A DNA stretch of 64,000 bases from Pseudomonadota bacterium (GTDB lineage: Bacteria; Pseudomonadota; Gammaproteobacteria; Burkholderiales; Gallionellaceae), in NCBI GenBank assembly GCA_021782995.1, contig JAJXUI010000005.1, positions 1 through 64,000 on the forward strand. The letters run 5' to 3'. Positions 7,077 through 16,290 of the stretch are shown piece after piece (position 1 is the first letter of the stretch; each line of letters begins with the position of its first letter). The notes under the pieces are model-generated. The model was not told where the DNA came from. It saw nothing but the letters and a program-made list of their open reading frames with translations, and made no database searches. The position numbers were made by a program, and so were the translations under genes.

Positions 7077-8110
7077 TGTCTCTGCCTGACCTTTTCAGAA
7101 GTAGCGTCATCCGAAATCTGGTCATTTCCATCCTGGCCTTGCAGCTGGTCATGCTGGTGGGTACGTTGGGCTATCATGCGCTGGGAGATGGCCGGTATAC
7201 ATGGGTCGATTGCTATTACATGACTTTCATCACGATCTCCACGATCGGCTTTAACGAAGTGGTGGATGTCAGTCATTACGAGTATGGCAAACTCTTTACG
7301 GTTTTTATCGGGATTGCCGGTATCGGCATGATGGGGTATGTGCTTTCCACTTTCACGGCATTTGTGCTGGAAAGTGATCTGAATATGGAATGGCGGGGGG
7401 CGAGAATGCGCAGCAGGATAGCAAGGATGCAAGGGCATTTCATCGTGTGCGGGGTAGGCAGGGTGGGCAGCAATGTAGTCAACGAACTGGTGGCAACGCA
7501 CCGCACATGCGTGATGATAGATGAAAACATCCAGCACATCGAAAGCTGCCTGGAAAAGCACCCGGAACTGGGATGGTTGCATGGTGATGCAACCGACAAT
7601 GATGTCCTGATCGCTGCAGGAGTCAAAGCTGCAAAAGGACTGTTTGCCGTGGCGCAGGATGACAGCCAGAACCTGGTGATCAGTCTCAGCGCGAAGCAGC
7701 TTAATCCGAACCTGCGTGTGGTGGCACGCTGTCATGAAGTGAAGAATGTGGAAAAGACGTTGCGTGCCGGAGCGGATGAAATCGTGTCGCCGGATTATTC
7801 AGGTGCACAGCGCCTGGTATCGGCCATGGTGCGTCCGCAGGTACTCGGGTTCCTGGATGAAATGCACAAATCCTCTGAAGGTTTGCGCATGGAGGAAATG
7901 ACGGTGCCGGATAATTTGTTTGGCAAAACGTTGAGTAACATCAATCGCAAATCGAATGAATTTACCGTGCTGGCAGTTGGCCACAACGGCAAGAACTGGA
8001 CTTTCAATCCACAATCCGGATATGTGCTGAATCCGGGTGACATCCTGATGGTGCTGACGACGCCGCAAGGCCGAGCCAGTCTGGAACAAGGCCTGCAATC
8101 CACCGCTTGA
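7076..8110 (+). CDS. two-TM potassium channel with RCK (TrkA-N/TrkA-C) domains
   Basis: 344 residues. A first membrane helix (about 11-35), a pore loop and a second helix (about 80-105) make an inner-membrane ion channel subunit of the KcsA/MthK type. It is followed by a cytoplasmic NAD-binding RCK domain with a Rossmann signature (FIVCGVGRVGSNVV) and a C-terminal TrkA-C domain. The selectivity filter reads TISTIGFNE, where classical potassium channels have TVGYGD; the pore-helix pattern is kept but the filter's terminal Gly-Asp is Asn-Glu. Ion selectivity therefore cannot be assumed from family membership. The gene starts in the def stop codon (TGATG), so it is the last member of the coupled run starting at galU. 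Confidence 0.88.
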   Translation: MSLPDLFRSSVIRNLVISILALQLVMLVGTLGYHALGDGRYTWVDCYYMTFITISTIGFNEVVDVSHYEYGKLFTVFIGIAGIGMMGYVLSTFTAFVLESDLNMEWRGARMRSRIARMQGHFIVCGVGRVGSNVVNELVATHRTCVMIDENIQHIESCLEKHPELGWLHGDATDNDVLIAAGVKAAKGLFAVAQDDSQNLVISLSAKQLNPNLRVVARCHEVKNVEKTLRAGADEIVSPDYSGAQRLVSAMVRPQVLGFLDEMHKSSEGLRMEEMTVPDNLFGKTLSNINRKSNEFTVLAVGHNGKNWTFNPQSGYVLNPGDILMVLTTPQGRASLEQGLQSTA

Positions 8111-10089: not shown

Positions 10090-12783
10090 CTAAGCCTTGC
10101 TCACCAGCTCTTTCAGCACGAAGGGCAGGATGCCGCCATTTCTGTAGTAGTCCACTTCGATAGGTGTATCGATACGAAGGAGGAGTGCAACTTTCTGCGA
10201 GCTGCCATCCTTGCGCGTGATGTTCAGTGTCACATCTTGTTGTGGTTTGATTTCACCATTCAGGCCGCTGATGTCGAATGTCTCATCACCAGTCAGGTTA
10301 AGCGCAGCCATGGTATCGTTGCCCTTGAACTGCAACGGCAGCACACCCATGCCCACCAGGTTGCTGCGGTGGATGCGTTCATACGATTTTGCGATGACCG
10401 CTTTCACGCCCAGCAGCTGCGTGCCCTTGGCAGCCCAGTCGCGAGAGGAGCCGGTGCCGTATTCTTCACCGGCAAAGATCACGGTGGGGGTGCCGGCAGC
10501 AATGTGTTTCATCGCGGCATCATAGATGGCCATCTGCTCGCCGTTATACAAAGTGTACCCGCCTTCGATACGGGAGCCATCTGCATTCGGTGGCAACATC
10601 AGGTTCTTGATGCGCACATTGGCAAAAGTGCCGCGCATCATCACTTCATGGTTGCCACGGCGCGCGCCATAGCTGTTGAAGTCTTTCACTTCAACCTTGT
10701 GTGCCTGCAGGTATTTGCCTGCGGGAGTGGTGGGTTTGAAGCTGCCCGCCGGGCTGATGTGGTCGGTGGTGACGGAATCGCCCAGCAATGCCAGTGCCTT
10801 CGCGCCCTTGATGTCGCCGATTTTTGGTGCGGCGGCATCAAAAAACGGTGGCTTCGCGATATAGGTCGAGTCGTCCCACTGGTACTGGTTGCCGGTGGGG
10901 GCGGGTACGGCGTTCCACAGCGGCAGGTCCTTGGTAAGGTTGCCATACAGTTTCTGATAGACAACAGGATCGGCGGCGAACTTCATCATCGTTGCCACCT
11001 CATGACTGTTGGGCCAGACGTCTTTCAGGTATACAGGCTGGCCATCCTTGCCGGTGCCGAGAGGCTCGGTTGTCAGGTCGATATTGGATTTGCCGGCGAT
11101 GGCATAGGCCACAACCAGTGGCGGCGAAGCGAGGAAGTTGGCCTTGATGTTCGGGTGGATGCGCGCTTCGAAATTGCGGTTGCCGGAGAGCACTGCAGCA
11201 CAGATCAGGTTGTTGTCGGTGATGGTCTTGTCGATGTCCTCGCGCAGCGGGCCGGCATTGCCGATGCAGGTGGTGCAGCCATAAGCGGCAACTGTAAAGC
11301 CGAGTTGTGCCAGTGGCTCGATCAGGCCGGCATTGGTGAGGTATTCGGTCACCACGCGCGATCCGGGGGCGAGTGAAGTCTTGATATGTGGTGCCACTTT
11401 CAGGCCTTTTGCCACGGCCTTCTTGGCCAGCAGGCCGGCGGCCAGGAGTACGCCGGGGTTGGAGGTGTTGGTGCAGCTGGTGATGGCTGCGATCAGTACG
11501 TCGCCATTGCCGATTTTCAGGTCATCCTTGCCGGTGGCATAGCGCGTGTTCAGCTTGTCAGCGGGCTGGTTGAAGCCATTTTCTGCCACTGGTTTGGAAA
11601 ACAGGGTGTTGAAGGTATCCTTCATCTTCGACAGCGCGATGCGATCCTGCGGGCGCTTGGGGCCGGATAGCGATGGCTCGATGCTGGACAGATCCAGCTC
11701 GACCACGCTGCTGTAATCGATGTCGCCTGCCTTGGGAATGCCATAGAGATTCTGCGCCTTGAAGTAAGCTTCGAAAGCCTCCACTTCTTCGGCAGTGCGG
11801 CCGGTGTTTTTCATGAACTGCACGGTGACGTCATCTACCGGGAAGAAACCCATGGTTGCACCGTATTCCGGCGCCATGTTGGCAATCGTTGCGCGGTCTG
11901 GCAATGAGAGGCTGGCGGTGCCTGCACCGAAGAATTCGACAAACTTGCCCACCACTTTCTGTTTGCGCAGCAACTCAGTTACGGTGAGCACCAGGTCAGT
12001 TGCGGTGACACCTTCCTTCAGTTGCCCTTTCAGGTTTACCCCTACCACATCCGGGGTGAGGAAATACACCGGCTGGCCCAGCATGCCGGCTTCCGCCTCG
12101 ATGCCGCCCACGCCCCAGCCGACTACACCGATACCGTTGATCATTGTCGTGTGGCTGTCTGTTCCGACCAGCGTATCGGGATAGTAGACCTCATCCTTGT
12201 GCTGCACGCCGCGTGCCAGGTATTCCAGATTGACCTGGTGCACAATGCCGATGCCGGGAGGGACAACTTTGAATGTATCAAATGCCTGCATGCCCCATTT
12301 CATGAAGCGGTAGCGTTCCTTGTTGCGCTCGAATTCCAGCTCCATGTTGAGCTTCAGCGCATCCGGCCGGTTGTAGTGGTCGATCTGCACTGAGTGATCC
12401 ACCACCAGGTCCACCGGCACCAGCGGCTCGATGATTTTCGGGTTCTTGCCGGATTGCGCTGCAGCATCGCGCATTGCGGCGAGGTCTGCCAGCAGCGGCA
12501 CGCCTGTAAAGTCTTGCAGCACAATACGTGCAACGACAAATGGAATTTCTTCCGTACGTGCTGCATTCGGTTTCCAGTTCGCCAGCTCCTTCACATGTTG
12601 TTCGCTGACTTTCTTTCCGTCGCAATTCCTCAGTACGGATTCCAGCACAATACGGATGGAAACCGGCAGGCGTGAGATGTTGCCGACCCCGGCGGTTTCA
12701 AGTGCGGGAAGGGAATACAGGGTGCCCGACTTGCCGCTGGCAAGCTTGAACGTTTGACGGGAGTTGAAAAGGTTGTGCGACAT
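10090..12783 (-). CDS. acnA: aconitate hydratase AcnA
   Basis: 897 residues, full length for the AcnA/IRP type. Isomerises citrate to isocitrate in the TCA cycle with a 4Fe-4S cluster; enzymes of this type can moonlight as RNA-binding proteins when the cluster is lost. The cluster cysteines appear in CTNTSNPGV and in [13 protein letters not shown]. Other family motifs are [21 protein letters not shown], and SRDWAAKG and [13 protein letters not shown] in the C-terminal swivel domain. The gene is monocistronic: a ggag ribosome site precedes the ATG, a TATAAT-like -10 box reads at 12839-12834 on the minus strand, and a strong terminator follows the stop. No other TCA gene adjoins it. Confidence 0.97.
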
Positions 12784-12912
12784 GTGAATGCTCCGAGATG
12801 ATTGTTGTTTTAGTGCGGAATGATGAAAATATAATTATACCGCGACTGGGCAGGCGACACGGAGTCGGGAAATGCCAATTCCCCTGCAGTTGCAGGGAGA
12901 GGAGAGGGGACG

Positions 12913-13200
12913 TCAGTCCAGGTTGATATGCGAAGCCTCAACCCATTGATTTGCCGGGGATGAGCCGTAAAGCTGGCTGTGCAGCATGGACAAGCGCAGG
13001 ATTTCGGAGGCGACTGCTGTCGGGAAACCCTGGCGCGGATGCTCTCGTTTGTCCAGCATGAACTTGTTCAGGTAGGAGTCAAATTCAGGAGAATCCCACA
13101 TGATCATGATTTTCTCCAGCACCAGCGGAAATTGTTTTTCCAGCTGGTGCGGGTAAAAGTCTTCCTGGCTATTCAGCTGTTTCAGGATTTTTTCATTCAT
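12913..13200 (-). CDS. orphan copy of the N-terminal domain of the neighbouring ankyrin protein
   Basis: 95 residues. I do not recognise a named family, but it aligns along its length with the first about 80 residues of the gene just upstream (13255-14169). Shared positions include YPH-L-KQ-P, LEKI/LHKI, WDS, LD-R, RQGFP-AVA and EILRLS. This copy stops where the other protein runs on into ankyrin repeats. It is predicted cytoplasmic and mostly helical, with no signal peptide. Both genes read on the minus strand 54 bases apart, so they are probably co-transcribed and arose by tandem duplication, with gain or loss of the repeats. Function unknown. Confidence 0.75.
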   Translation of the reverse strand: MNEKILKQLNSQEDFYPHQLEKQFPLVLEKIMIMWDSPEFDSYLNKFMLDKREHPRQGFPTAVASEILRLSMLHSQLYGSSPANQWVEASHINLD

Positions 13201-13254
13201 TATTCGTACCTCCCCTTGTTTACTGCTTCAGCAAATTGCCGCGTGGTTGGCGTA

Positions 13255-14169
13255 TCAGCGGCGTACAGGCATGCCCGCCGGCCCTTGTTCGGGCAGTGAG
13301 GACAGCAATTCTGAAATGGCCTGGTGCTTGCCCGTGGCTGAAAGGCTCAGTGCTGTGCTGCCATTGTGGCGCGGCCGAGTCCAGTCCGCTCCCCGAGAAA
13401 TCAGCAGTTTCACCATGTCGAGATGACCATTTGCTGCGGCCTTTTGCAGTGGCGTCCAGTGGTCATTGCTGATGCCGTTCACGTCTGCGCCGGAGTCGAT
13501 CAGGACTTGCGCGGCCAGAATGTGGCCTTGTGATGCTGCTTGCAGCAATGCCGTCCAGCCCAACTTGCTCTTTGCAGCGATGTCAGCCTTGTGCGACACC
13601 AGCAGCTTGACGAGCAGATGGTGGCCGTGAAACGCAGCCCAGTGCAGTGCGCCGTAGCCGTTCTTGTCCTTGGCGTTGGGATTGGCTTGATGGTTTAGCA
13701 AGATGGCGGCAACCTGCTCATGACCACAGGCTGCTGCATGCATCAATGGAGTCCAGCTCTGTTCGTCTTCTGTTTCGGTTGGGGCGCGGGTACGCAGGTA
13801 GATATTGATGGCATTTGCATTGCCGGCTTTGGCAGCCGTAACAAAGTCATGCGGGGCATATTTGTAGCCCAGATTGCCGAGCTCCATTTTGTCCTTGTCC
13901 GCGACCTTGTGCCATGAGTGCGGTTTTTTGCTTTCGCGGTATCTTTCATTGATGCGGCTGAGACGCAGGATTTCATCGGCTACGGCAACCGGGAAACCCT
14001 GGCGCTGGTCGTTACGCGTATCGAGTATCAGGCCACTGAAGTAATCGTCAATGAGCTCCGAATCCCAGAGCGCAATGATCTTGTGCAGGATTTGCGGATA
14101 TTGTTTGGCCAGGTTATGCGGGTAGTGCACGCTGTTGATATTGAAAAATGCCTGATTCTTGTCATCCAT
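13255..14169 (-). CDS. ankyrin-repeat protein with unrecognised N-terminal domain
   Basis: 304 residues. Residues 1-80 form the domain shared with the next gene. From about residue 105 there are five to six ankyrin repeats, with recognisable TPLMHAAACGH, GALHWAAFHGH, TALLQAASQGH, TPLQKAAANGH and TALSLSATGKH hairpins and the GAD-N loops. The tail is short and Pro/Gly/Arg-rich. Ankyrin arrays bind proteins, so a role as adaptor or inhibitor, perhaps of a partner recognised through the N-terminal domain, is plausible but inferred. There is no signal peptide. The start ATG at 14169 follows a purine-rich stretch (gggaggaaa) about 25 bases upstream; the upstream spacer is AT-rich. Confidence 0.88.
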   Translation of the reverse strand: MDDKNQAFFNINSVHYPHNLAKQYPQILHKIIALWDSELIDDYFSGLILDTRNDQRQGFPVAVADEILRLSRINERYRESKKPHSWHKVADKDKMELGNLGYKYAPHDFVTAAKAGNANAINIYLRTRAPTETEDEQSWTPLMHAAACGHEQVAAILLNHQANPNAKDKNGYGALHWAAFHGHHLLVKLLVSHKADIAAKSKLGWTALLQAASQGHILAAQVLIDSGADVNGISNDHWTPLQKAAANGHLDMVKLLISRGADWTRPRHNGSTALSLSATGKHQAISELLSSLPEQGPAGMPVRR

Positions 14170-14328
14170 GATTTGTCATTGCCCCCAAACATTTTCCTCC
14201 CGGAATGATTATTTCTTATTTATATCTTTTTATCATTGTCAAAAATTATAAAACAATTCATAACGGAATCAACTGGATGTTGGTCCATATTCCTGTACTA
14301 AAGTCCAGTTAGTGGCGATGGCCTGTAT

Positions 14329-16290
14329 TTACTGGGGAATCAGGAAGTCGATGGCTTCCTGCAACACCCGCGTGCGGCGGAAGGGAGGCAGGCTTTGCCA
14401 GACGCGCTTGCCGTAGGGTTTGCTGATCATCCTGGGATCGCAGATCATCAGCACACCCTTGTCATTTTCGTCGCGGATCAGCCGTCCGGCTCCCTGCTTC
14501 AGGTTGATTACTGCGCGTGGCAGCTGGTATTCCATGAAGGCATTGCGCCCCTGTTTGTTGATCTGCGCGATGCGCGCGGCCAATACCGGGTCATCTGGCG
14601 GTGCAAAAGGCAGTTTGTCGATGACGACCAGGGAAAGCGCTTCACCTCGCACATCCACGCCTTCCCAGAATGACTGGCTGCCCAGCAATACCGCATTGCC
14701 GTGCTCGCGGAAGCGCGACAGCAGGTCATTGCGGGAGCCTTCGCCCTGCATCATGATCGGGTATTTCAGGTTGCGGCGATCAAATTCCGCAAGCAGGATT
14801 TCCTGTGCTTTCTGCATGGCCTTGAGGCTGGTGAACAGCAGGAAGGCGCGGCCCTTGCTCGCAATGATCAGCGGCAGTGCGGCAGCCATCACGGCTTCGG
14901 TGTATCCGGGGCTGTTCGGGTCCGGCATGCTTTCTGGTGCATACAGCAACGCCTGTTCGGGATAATTGAAAGGACTGTCCCAGCATGCTGTTTTAGCTTC
15001 AAGCAGGCCCATTTCCTTCTGGTAATGGGAAAAGTCCTGTTTCACTGCCAGGGTTGCAGAGGTGAAGATCCAGGCGCGTGGCGTACCACTGATCTGCTTT
15101 GCAAAGATCTCGGCGATGGAAAGCGGGGTGGTGTTGAGTTGTACAGAGTGCGTAAAGATTTCCACCCAGCGCACCATGTCCAGCTGGTTTTCATCCTGCC
15201 ATTGCCTGATCTTGCCGTGCAGTTCCATGCATCGGTTCCAGCAATTCTCCAGGCCTTCGCTGCGGCCGGCCTGAAGCTCCAGCAGCTCATTCAGTTTGCC
15301 CATGTGCTGATCCAGTGTTTCGAGCGCCTTGCCCCAGCCGGGCAGGGTCACCACTTCGTTGGCATTGAGGCGGCCTTCGTTTTTGCGGAACACGAGGCGC
15401 AGGTCGCGCGCGGCTTTTTCCACTGCACTGCAGGCATCCGGCAGCGGGGTGAAATCCTTGGCGCCGGCAAGTGCCTCGATGGTGGTGTCGCGGGTCAGTT
15501 CCAGCAGCTGCGAAGTGGAGAGATTTTCACCGAAAAACAGGCTGGCGGTTTCCGGCAACTGGTGGGCTTCGTCGAAGATGACCGTGTTGCAGGCGGGCAG
15601 CAGCTCAGCCACACCCTCGTCACGCAGCATCACATCGGCGAAGAACAGGTGGTGGTTTACAACTACCACATCCGCTTCCATGGCCTGTTTACGTGCCTTC
15701 AACACAAAACATTCCTTGTGCATGGGACACTCCTGGCCCAGGCAGTTTTCGCGGGTGGAGGTGACGAACGACCAGATCATTGCAGATTCCGGGACATCGG
15801 CCAGCCCGCTTTTGTCGCCGCTTTGCGTGATCTTTGAGTATTGCACGATACGCTGCAGGTGTCGGACATCTTCGCGGGTTGGCAGGCGGCCCCCCGACTG
15901 TGCCAGTTCCAGATGGTAATGGCAGATATAGTTGGCCCGGCCTTTCAGCAATGCGATATTGACCGGAGCTTTCAAGGCATCGCGCACAGTGGGCAGGTCA
16001 CGCTGGTACAGCTGGTCCTGCAGGTTCTTGGTGCCGGTAGAAATCACGACCTTGCCGCCGGCGACCAGCGCCGGCACCAGGTAGGCAAAGGTTTTGCCTG
16101 TGCCGGTACCAGCTTCGGCAATCAGTTGTGTATTGTTGCGTATTGCCTCGGTGATGGCTTCCGCCATGGCCACTTGCTGCGGACGTGAGCGGAATTCCGG
16201 TATATGCGCGGCCAGCGGACCGGACGGGGAAAACAGCGAGCTTATTTCAGGTTGGTGCATTGAGGGGCGGGGTTGGTGCAGGAAGGGCAT
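14329..16290 (-). CDS. ATP-dependent DNA helicase, DinG/YoaA family (XPD-like, iron-sulfur)
   Basis: Superfamily 2 5'-3' helicase, 653 residues, closer in length to YoaA than to the longer DinG. Walker A is AEAGTGTGKTFAY (about residue 60), Walker B is VIFDEAHQLPE, and helicase motif VI is near the C-terminus (QGAGRLIRDENDKG). Cysteines in NYICHYHLE and in ENCLGQECPMHKECF are the four expected ligands of the XPD-type 4Fe-4S cluster. Enzymes of this family act in DNA repair and unwind forked or R-loop substrates. The start is uncertain between 16290 and an in-frame ATG at 16260 (MHQPEISS); neither has a good ribosome site. Confidence 0.9.
   Translation of the reverse strand: MPFLHQPRPSMHQPEISSLFSPSGPLAAHIPEFRSRPQQVAMAEAITEAIRNNTQLIAEAGTGTGKTFAYLVPALVAGGKVVISTGTKNLQDQLYQRDLPTVRDALKAPVNIALLKGRANYICHYHLELAQSGGRLPTREDVRHLQRIVQYSKITQSGDKSGLADVPESAMIWSFVTSTRENCLGQECPMHKECFVLKARKQAMEADVVVVNHHLFFADVMLRDEGVAELLPACNTVIFDEAHQLPETASLFFGENLSTSQLLELTRDTTIEALAGAKDFTPLPDACSAVEKAARDLRLVFRKNEGRLNANEVVTLPGWGKALETLDQHMGKLNELLELQAGRSEGLENCWNRCMELHGKIRQWQDENQLDMVRWVEIFTHSVQLNTTPLSIAEIFAKQISGTPRAWIFTSATLAVKQDFSHYQKEMGLLEAKTACWDSPFNYPEQALLYAPESMPDPNSPGYTEAVMAAALPLIIASKGRAFLLFTSLKAMQKAQEILLAEFDRRNLKYPIMMQGEGSRNDLLSRFREHGNAVLLGSQSFWEGVDVRGEALSLVVIDKLPFAPPDDPVLAARIAQINKQGRNAFMEYQLPRAVINLKQGAGRLIRDENDKGVLMICDPRMISKPYGKRVWQSLPPFRRTRVLQEAIDFLIPQ

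Follow-up and report, generated by a model that had tools for sequence, protein, structure and literature searches.

The gene pair and its surroundings

Why would a bacterium keep, side by side, two genes whose products share the same N-terminal part when only one of the products goes on into ankyrin repeats? The question is raised by two adjacent minus-strand genes in the stretch of DNA analyzed here, which we refer to as the window (64,000 nucleotides, positions 1 to 64,000 of contig JAJXUI010000005.1, assembly GCA_021782995.1) and which comes from a 2.75 Mb genome, 85% complete, of a member of the Gallionellaceae. The ankyrin-bearing gene (13255..14169) is an open reading frame for a protein of 304 aa, with the shared domain at about residues 1-81 (13927..14169, placed by a match to our domain profile A1 and by the helices of a structure model) and six ankyrin repeats at about residues 106-290 (13300..13854). 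The small gene (12913..13200) is an open reading frame for 95 aa, which comprise the shared domain and a short C-terminal tail. Both are flanked on the same strand by genes that we take, from their sequences, to encode a DinG-like helicase (14329..16290), the conserved upstream neighbor, and an AcnA-like aconitase (10090..12783). The order of transcription is dinG-like, ankyrin gene, small gene, acnA-like, with gaps of 159, 54 and 129 bp, and there is no pilus gene beside the pair.

A consensus scan of 12700-14450 found three promoter-like sites (one of them inside the ankyrin gene) against 1.5 (sd 1.3) in shuffled sequence, and no terminator-like site. The minus-strand sites upstream of the ankyrin gene span 14208..14272, the best being 14272-14245 with 10/12 consensus positions.

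A sequence-only reading of the window had proposed that the two proteins have about 80 N-terminal residues in common and that only one of them carries repeats, "five to six" in number. Both proposals hold. By BLASTP 37 of 86 residues are identical (43%, E 2e-22, residues 1-86 of each protein), and the domain of the ankyrin protein matches profile A1 at E 1.7e-28, the same sequence being one row of that profile. The long protein matches Pfam Ank_2 at 1.2e-33 (115.9 bits against a cut-off of 27.3), and its AF2 model (mean pLDDT 90.4) has six helix pairs at residues 106-290, and thus six ankyrin repeats, while the small protein has no Pfam match and no ankyrin repeats. Comparison of the model with ankyrin and DARPin chains by VIA-align gave Z scores of 24-29, although these alignments mostly cover residues 86-295 and are uninformative on the shared domain. 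Ankyrin repeats are also what the long protein has in common with the bacterial ankyrin proteins of NCBIfam (Dot/Icm Ank effectors and MzaA), whose models it matches in the repeats only and far below their cut-offs (101.6 of 800 bits for MzaA, 71.6 of 600 for the best Dot/Icm effector).

Searching the whole genome for further copies, as that reading had suggested, brought to light one more. At E <= 0.001 the small protein matched only itself, its ankyrin neighbor (44% identity, E 1.1e-18) and a third copy on contig C53 (36%, E 2.1e-11), which is ankyrin-bearing too. This third copy (L003 and L234; around 7213-7443 of its contig) lies beside a gene for a GGDEF-type protein, as read from sequence, and has an equivalent on contig C6 of a congener (G001; L050).

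The shared domain

We refer to the shared domain as RQGFP, a label of our own. It is helical, with the signature W...D-x-R-x(2,3)-RQGFP, and an alignment of 56 members shows W and G in every sequence, with L, R, R, Q, F, P, A and L each present in at least 90%; the RQGFP string and the W of WDS, which had been picked out from the two window proteins, are thus features of the wider family. In the model of the ankyrin protein the domain consists of helices 3-8, 18-23, 25-33, 40-48 and 61-81, and the conserved R-x(2,3)-RQGFP sits in the loop between helix 40-48 and the long helix 61-81. Mean pLDDT in ten-residue blocks is 87-92 for residues 21-50, 81-91 for 61-80 and 68 for the loop at 51-60. The small protein modeled by itself (from 56 sequences) reached a mean pLDDT of 67 and a pTM of 0.51, a modest quality from which we claim no fold.

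That the domain could not be given a name from sequence alone was confirmed by the searches that followed. Scanning of the 56 members gave no convincing match in Pfam-A (best E 0.024, two members) or PHROGs (best E 0.021, one member) and none at 0.1 in NCBIfam, and the best match of the domain profile to PDB sequences had an E of 0.095. Fold comparison of the domain, from a model of modest quality, gave at best an E of 1.8 with Foldseek and, with VIA-align, a Z of 4.0 (rmsd 3.0 over 65 residues), neither of which stands out from background. Nor is such a domain named in the titles and abstract openings covered by our literature search, which took in few subscription papers and no bioRxiv preprints. 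The arginine spacing R-x(2,3)-R is reminiscent of c-di-GMP-binding motifs, but it varies and the idea was dropped. We would class RQGFP as a new domain family, as yet without a name, that goes with a known system.

Conservation of the pair

In all five genomes of the genus that we examined (G000-G004, the first being that of the window) an ankyrin copy and a small copy lie side by side after dinG. Their order is ankyrin-small-acnA in G000, G001 and G002 and small-ankyrin, followed by a presumed MEMO-like gene, in G003 and G004. The small gene is an open frame in all five, and it groups with the small copies of its four congeners, although the support of 67/89 is not strong. Its dN/dS (Nei-Gojobori) is 0.183/1.20 = 0.15 for G000/G001, 0.163/0.842 = 0.19 for G003/G004 and 0.389/1.575 = 0.25 for G000/G004, these being the three of ten genome pairs with a usable dS (of the others, six yielded none and one was saturated). 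The ankyrin gene, for which two of ten pairs gave no dS, has values of 0.222/2.42 (G000/G001) and 0.104/0.958 (G003/G004). The small gene is under purifying selection and has been kept in the congeners, and hence is not decaying. The sequence-only reading had made conservation in related genomes the test of whether the small copy is a decaying duplicate, and it is conserved.

With these five included, a domain gene directly adjoins dinG on the same strand in a total of 11 genomes. The adjoining gene is ankyrin-bearing in eight (G000-G002, G030, G024, G012, G008 and G017) and of the small form in three (G003, G004 and a MAG, L088). On the 3' side of the ankyrin gene in Gallionellaceae there is often a trio of genes that we take to be MEMO-like, AMMECR1-like and radical-SAM (L087, L093, L095, L096, L081, L082).

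Distribution and forms of the domain

Of the 399 species of the order that were sampled, 163, or about 41%, have the domain, the window genome included (profile A1, E <= 1e-5), as do 12 of 273 genomes in the rest of the class sample (profile A1, E <= 0.001), one of these 12 (G253) by a weak partial match. Among 60 close relatives, searched with a single protein, 37 had a match, again including the window genome. Among named records, those closest to the small protein are Gallionellales and Nitrosomonadales MAGs, and a scan with patterns close to the window copy, which favors near relatives, found carriers among records of Gallionella, Sulfuricella, Chitinibacter, Dechloromonas, Propionivibrio, Thauera and Rhodoferax. 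Chitinibacter tainanensis has the ankyrin form.

In the loci that we collected there are 179 distinct domain sequences (176 when near and double entries are removed), of which a crude motif count assigns 75 to ankyrin-bearing ORFs and 104 to ORFs without ankyrin repeats, 26 of the latter being under 120 aa in stop-to-stop length. Other forms include long linker proteins with a C-terminal domain, proteins in which the domain is doubled in tandem, and some that have a hydrophobic stretch of membrane type. Stand-alone copies occur in many other genera, and some have no ankyrin twin in the stretch covered (L088; G011, G027 and G033, with 1.5 kb flanks). Ankyrin copies elsewhere adjoin MEMO/AMMECR1/radical-SAM-like genes and, among others, genes that we take to be malate dehydrogenase-like, greB-like, groEL and argJ-like. 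We had considered the neighborhood as an explanation of function and set it aside, since besides dinG the neighbors are varied and no single partner emerges.

Fusions of the domain to pilus-ATPase-like and FimV-like proteins

What, then, does the domain work with? One guide is its fusion partners, which we surveyed in the 78 domain ORFs that have no ankyrin repeats and measure 120 aa or more (Pfam, E <= 0.001; L060 and L073 are one gene entered twice, and L091 and L092 seem to be ankyrin copies that were cut). The recurrent partners were FimV_N (eight), T2SSE (five) and MshEN (five), together with AAA_16 (five), AAA_22 (five) and nSTAND_NTPase5 (three), which are models of the kind that match the same ATPases; SlyX, TPR_14 and ABC_tran were matched once each.

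The FimV/HubP proteins (PF25800 FimV_N, TIGR03505) are thus one known system to which the domain is joined, relatives elsewhere bearing it near the C-terminus, after a FimV-type TPR stretch. Of seven such FimV-like proteins seen singly, six exceed the cut-off of FimV_N and one falls below it, and all three that were tested fall below that of TIGR03505, as distant relatives. A model of the FimV-type TPR stretch, built on eight domain proteins, matches 18 of 179 domain ORFs and 4 of 3427 other ORFs; among the 18 are its eight seeds and a duplicate cut of one seed gene. Three of the four ORFs outside the domain set are, judged by position, fimV-like genes beside domain genes (L034, L135 and L139, the last two being the same loci as L221 and L222). 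The fourth (L205:2014-3501) is in a locus with a stand-alone domain gene. In contrast, the window pair has no FimV_N match, and no match to the domain was obtained for the window genome's own FimV, whose gene sits in a leuB-asd-fimV-truA-like locus; the single FimV_N match of this genome is on contig C62. Because the neighbors of one domain-bearing FimV-like gene (L071) differ from this leuB-asd-fimV-truA set, the domain-bearing proteins may represent a second FimV lineage. We noted the domain near the C-terminus of FimV-like proteins in L071, L073, L074, L076, L077, L159, L168 and L201, and in L168 and L201 it occurs twice.

The second system is that of the PilB/MshE-type ATPases (PF00437 T2SSE with PF05157 MshEN), five of which, elsewhere, bear the domain in their N-terminal part, whereas the window pair has no T2SSE ATPase domain. 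Three of these fusions, when tested, scored 483-500 of the 675.65 bits of the PilB equivalog and 447-456 of the 630.25 of GspE. Two genera of the family to which the window belongs (L033 and L034) have the gene for an ATPase fusion immediately ahead of a fimV-like gene; in L035, L166 and L199 no fimV-like gene was seen beside it.

A third association is one of gene order. In three loci (L042, L186 and L124) pilT, pilU and a gene for a protein with the domain and a C-terminal hydrophobic stretch follow each other on one strand in an operon-like arrangement, with gaps of 21, 20 and 3 bp, respectively, measured to the first start codon. L042 and L186 are of one genus, and the PilT of both exceeds the TIGR01420 cut-off; L124 is from a Rhodocyclaceae MAG.

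Some further proximities were not counted as support. In G029 and G015, which are of one genus, an ankyrin copy faces a convergent fimV-like gene (L104 is apparently the same contig as C8 of G015), and PilU-like or PilB-like genes are convergent near L189 and L213 and divergent, 1.8 kb off, near L122 and L123. The neighbors of stand-alone and ankyrin copies, when read by eye, are mostly non-pilus genes.

Co-occurrence with PilT

Our case for tying the domain to type IV pili (T4P) rests on genomic association, and it extends to whole genomes. PilT, called by TIGR01420 above its curated cut-off, is present in 325 of the 399 sampled species of the order; every one of the 163 domain carriers has it, and the 74 genomes that gave no PilT match all lack the domain (Fisher p 5e-20, with lineages treated as independent and genomes of all sizes pooled). 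The same pattern recurs within families f19, f20 and f202, each of which has members with both PilT and the domain and members with neither, and the genomes without a PilT match include large ones (G402, G422, G441). PilT was also found in 12 of 12 carriers of the rest of the class sample, a count over carriers only. In our sample, then, covering one order and the 12 carriers of the class sample, the domain is confined to PilT-bearing genomes. As 162 of the 325 PilT-bearing genomes have no domain, it is not a core part of the pilus.

How much of this signal is particular to pili? As a control we used FlhA (E <= 1e-100), which is present in 279 of 399 genomes, namely 136 of the 163 with the domain and 143 of the 236 that lack it (Fisher p 5e-7), and which is only loosely associated with the domain: 27 carriers have no FlhA match, as compared with no carrier without PilT. 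Because FlhA is enriched in carriers too, a general effect of motility or genome size may play some part in the PilT signal. Moreover, with PilT as widespread as it is, a test of co-occurrence can have only limited power if one counts lineages instead of genomes.

A proposed role for the pair

We lean towards a reading in which RQGFP is an uncharacterized cytoplasmic adaptor domain of the T4P and FimV/HubP polar-landmark machinery, the ankyrin gene encoding an adaptor and the small gene a docking head. The domain would serve as an adaptor in betaproteobacteria and in some other members of their class. A cytoplasmic position is suggested by the positive-inside rule, since a hydrophobic stretch followed by basic residues precedes the domain in several proteins (L054, L057, L059, L063, L064, L073 and L190), and in the PilT-PilU partners the domain precedes the C-terminal hydrophobic stretch. 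That it serves for docking is suggested by the occurrence of one domain on a motor ATPase, a landmark, an anchored partner and a soluble ankyrin protein. The product of the ankyrin gene would be a two-headed adaptor, its RQGFP domain docking on a T4P or pole component and its six ankyrin repeats holding a client protein, and the product of the small gene would be the docking head by itself. By occupying the same site, or by pairing with its twin, the small protein could tune the number of ankyrin adaptors that are loaded; competition between the twins is, we conjecture, the simplest use of a repeat-free copy. Physical docking on a T4P or pole component is a prediction, as is the idea that the copies which stand alone or carry ankyrin repeats work for the machine to which the fused ones belong.

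If the pair does not serve pili, what else might it do? One answer, which we think possible but not likely, is that RQGFP is a general-purpose interaction module used by several cytoplasmic systems, and that the pair has nothing to do with pili and works, for example, with the DinG-like helicase; the fusions to FimV-like proteins and ATPases would then be a minority use, and the overlap with PilT would reflect motile, larger genomes. The same-strand domain genes beside dinG in 11 genomes, the non-pilus neighbors of most copies read by eye and the enrichment of FlhA in carriers all agree with such a module, but it leaves unexplained why those fusion partners that recur and point to a particular system are T4P- or FimV-type proteins and why genomes without a PilT match never have the domain, though 27 carriers do without FlhA. 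As for DinG, it is no general partner, since the neighbors differ in the loci read outside Gallionellaceae. Improbable, in our judgment, is a regulatory twin with no pilus role, in which the small protein hetero-oligomerizes with the ankyrin protein, or out-competes it, on some other target. In favor of such a twin, the small copy has been kept beside the ankyrin copy in five genomes of the genus, in either order, and the small copies form one group (67/89); against this, stand-alone copies with no adjacent twin exist (L088, G011, G027, G033).

The arrangement of tandem paralogs, one with a repeat arm and one without, had also suggested an immunity-like pair, that is, a toxin with its protector, and PADLOC does give three matches on the pair (PDC-M72A, at 4.9e-32, Ankyrin and MzaA, the NCBIfam model of which is matched at 5.3e-29). 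All three are in the ankyrin region of the long protein, however, with the best stretches of PDC-M72A and MzaA at residues 100-286 and 110-193; the small protein has no PADLOC match, and neither Pfam nor NCBIfam finds a toxin domain in the pair. A phage or mobile origin was likewise rejected, for neither a pattern search for relatives on viral contigs nor tblastn with the small protein, both of which favor close relatives, found a viral-contig or phage record, and the sole plasmid record is a Rhodocyclaceae plasmid gene annotated as an ankyrin repeat protein. With the pair lying in a conserved block between the housekeeping dinG-like and acnA-like genes, the immunity-like suggestion is not borne out, and we regard a defense function as very improbable. 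Even less credible is that the small gene, having no repeats, is an ankyrin copy that has been truncated and is being lost, given its open frame in five genomes of the genus, its dN/dS of 0.15, 0.19 and 0.25 and the stand-alone copies in many other genera.

Returning to the adaptor reading, a bolder form of it can be put forward only tentatively, and we would not expect it to hold in full: that RQGFP is a dedicated T4P/pole docking module of betaproteobacteria, a plug, that all plug-bearing proteins share one socket, and that in the window pair an adaptor comes together with a competitor of its own. The carriers of the plug would be assembly ATPases, FimV-like landmarks, the tail-anchored partner of PilT and PilU, ankyrin adaptors and, as blank plugs, proteins such as that of the small gene, and a cell could set the behavior of its pili by which of these occupy the common socket. 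Its presence in some 41% of the sampled species of the order, together with its fusions to both ATPases and landmarks, makes the domain a candidate link between the position of a pilus and its drive. As domain genes are easily deleted, they offer a route into the recruitment and regulation of pilus machines outside Pseudomonas and Vibrio.

The doubling of domain copies takes other forms as well. Two ORFs (L120:5707-6246 and L127:5659-6186) consist of two tandem domain copies and little else, the first copy having a degenerate RQGFP loop. In L044, L167, L194 and L200 domain proteins without ankyrin repeats are likewise encoded in tandem, and doubled copies are therefore not special to the window.
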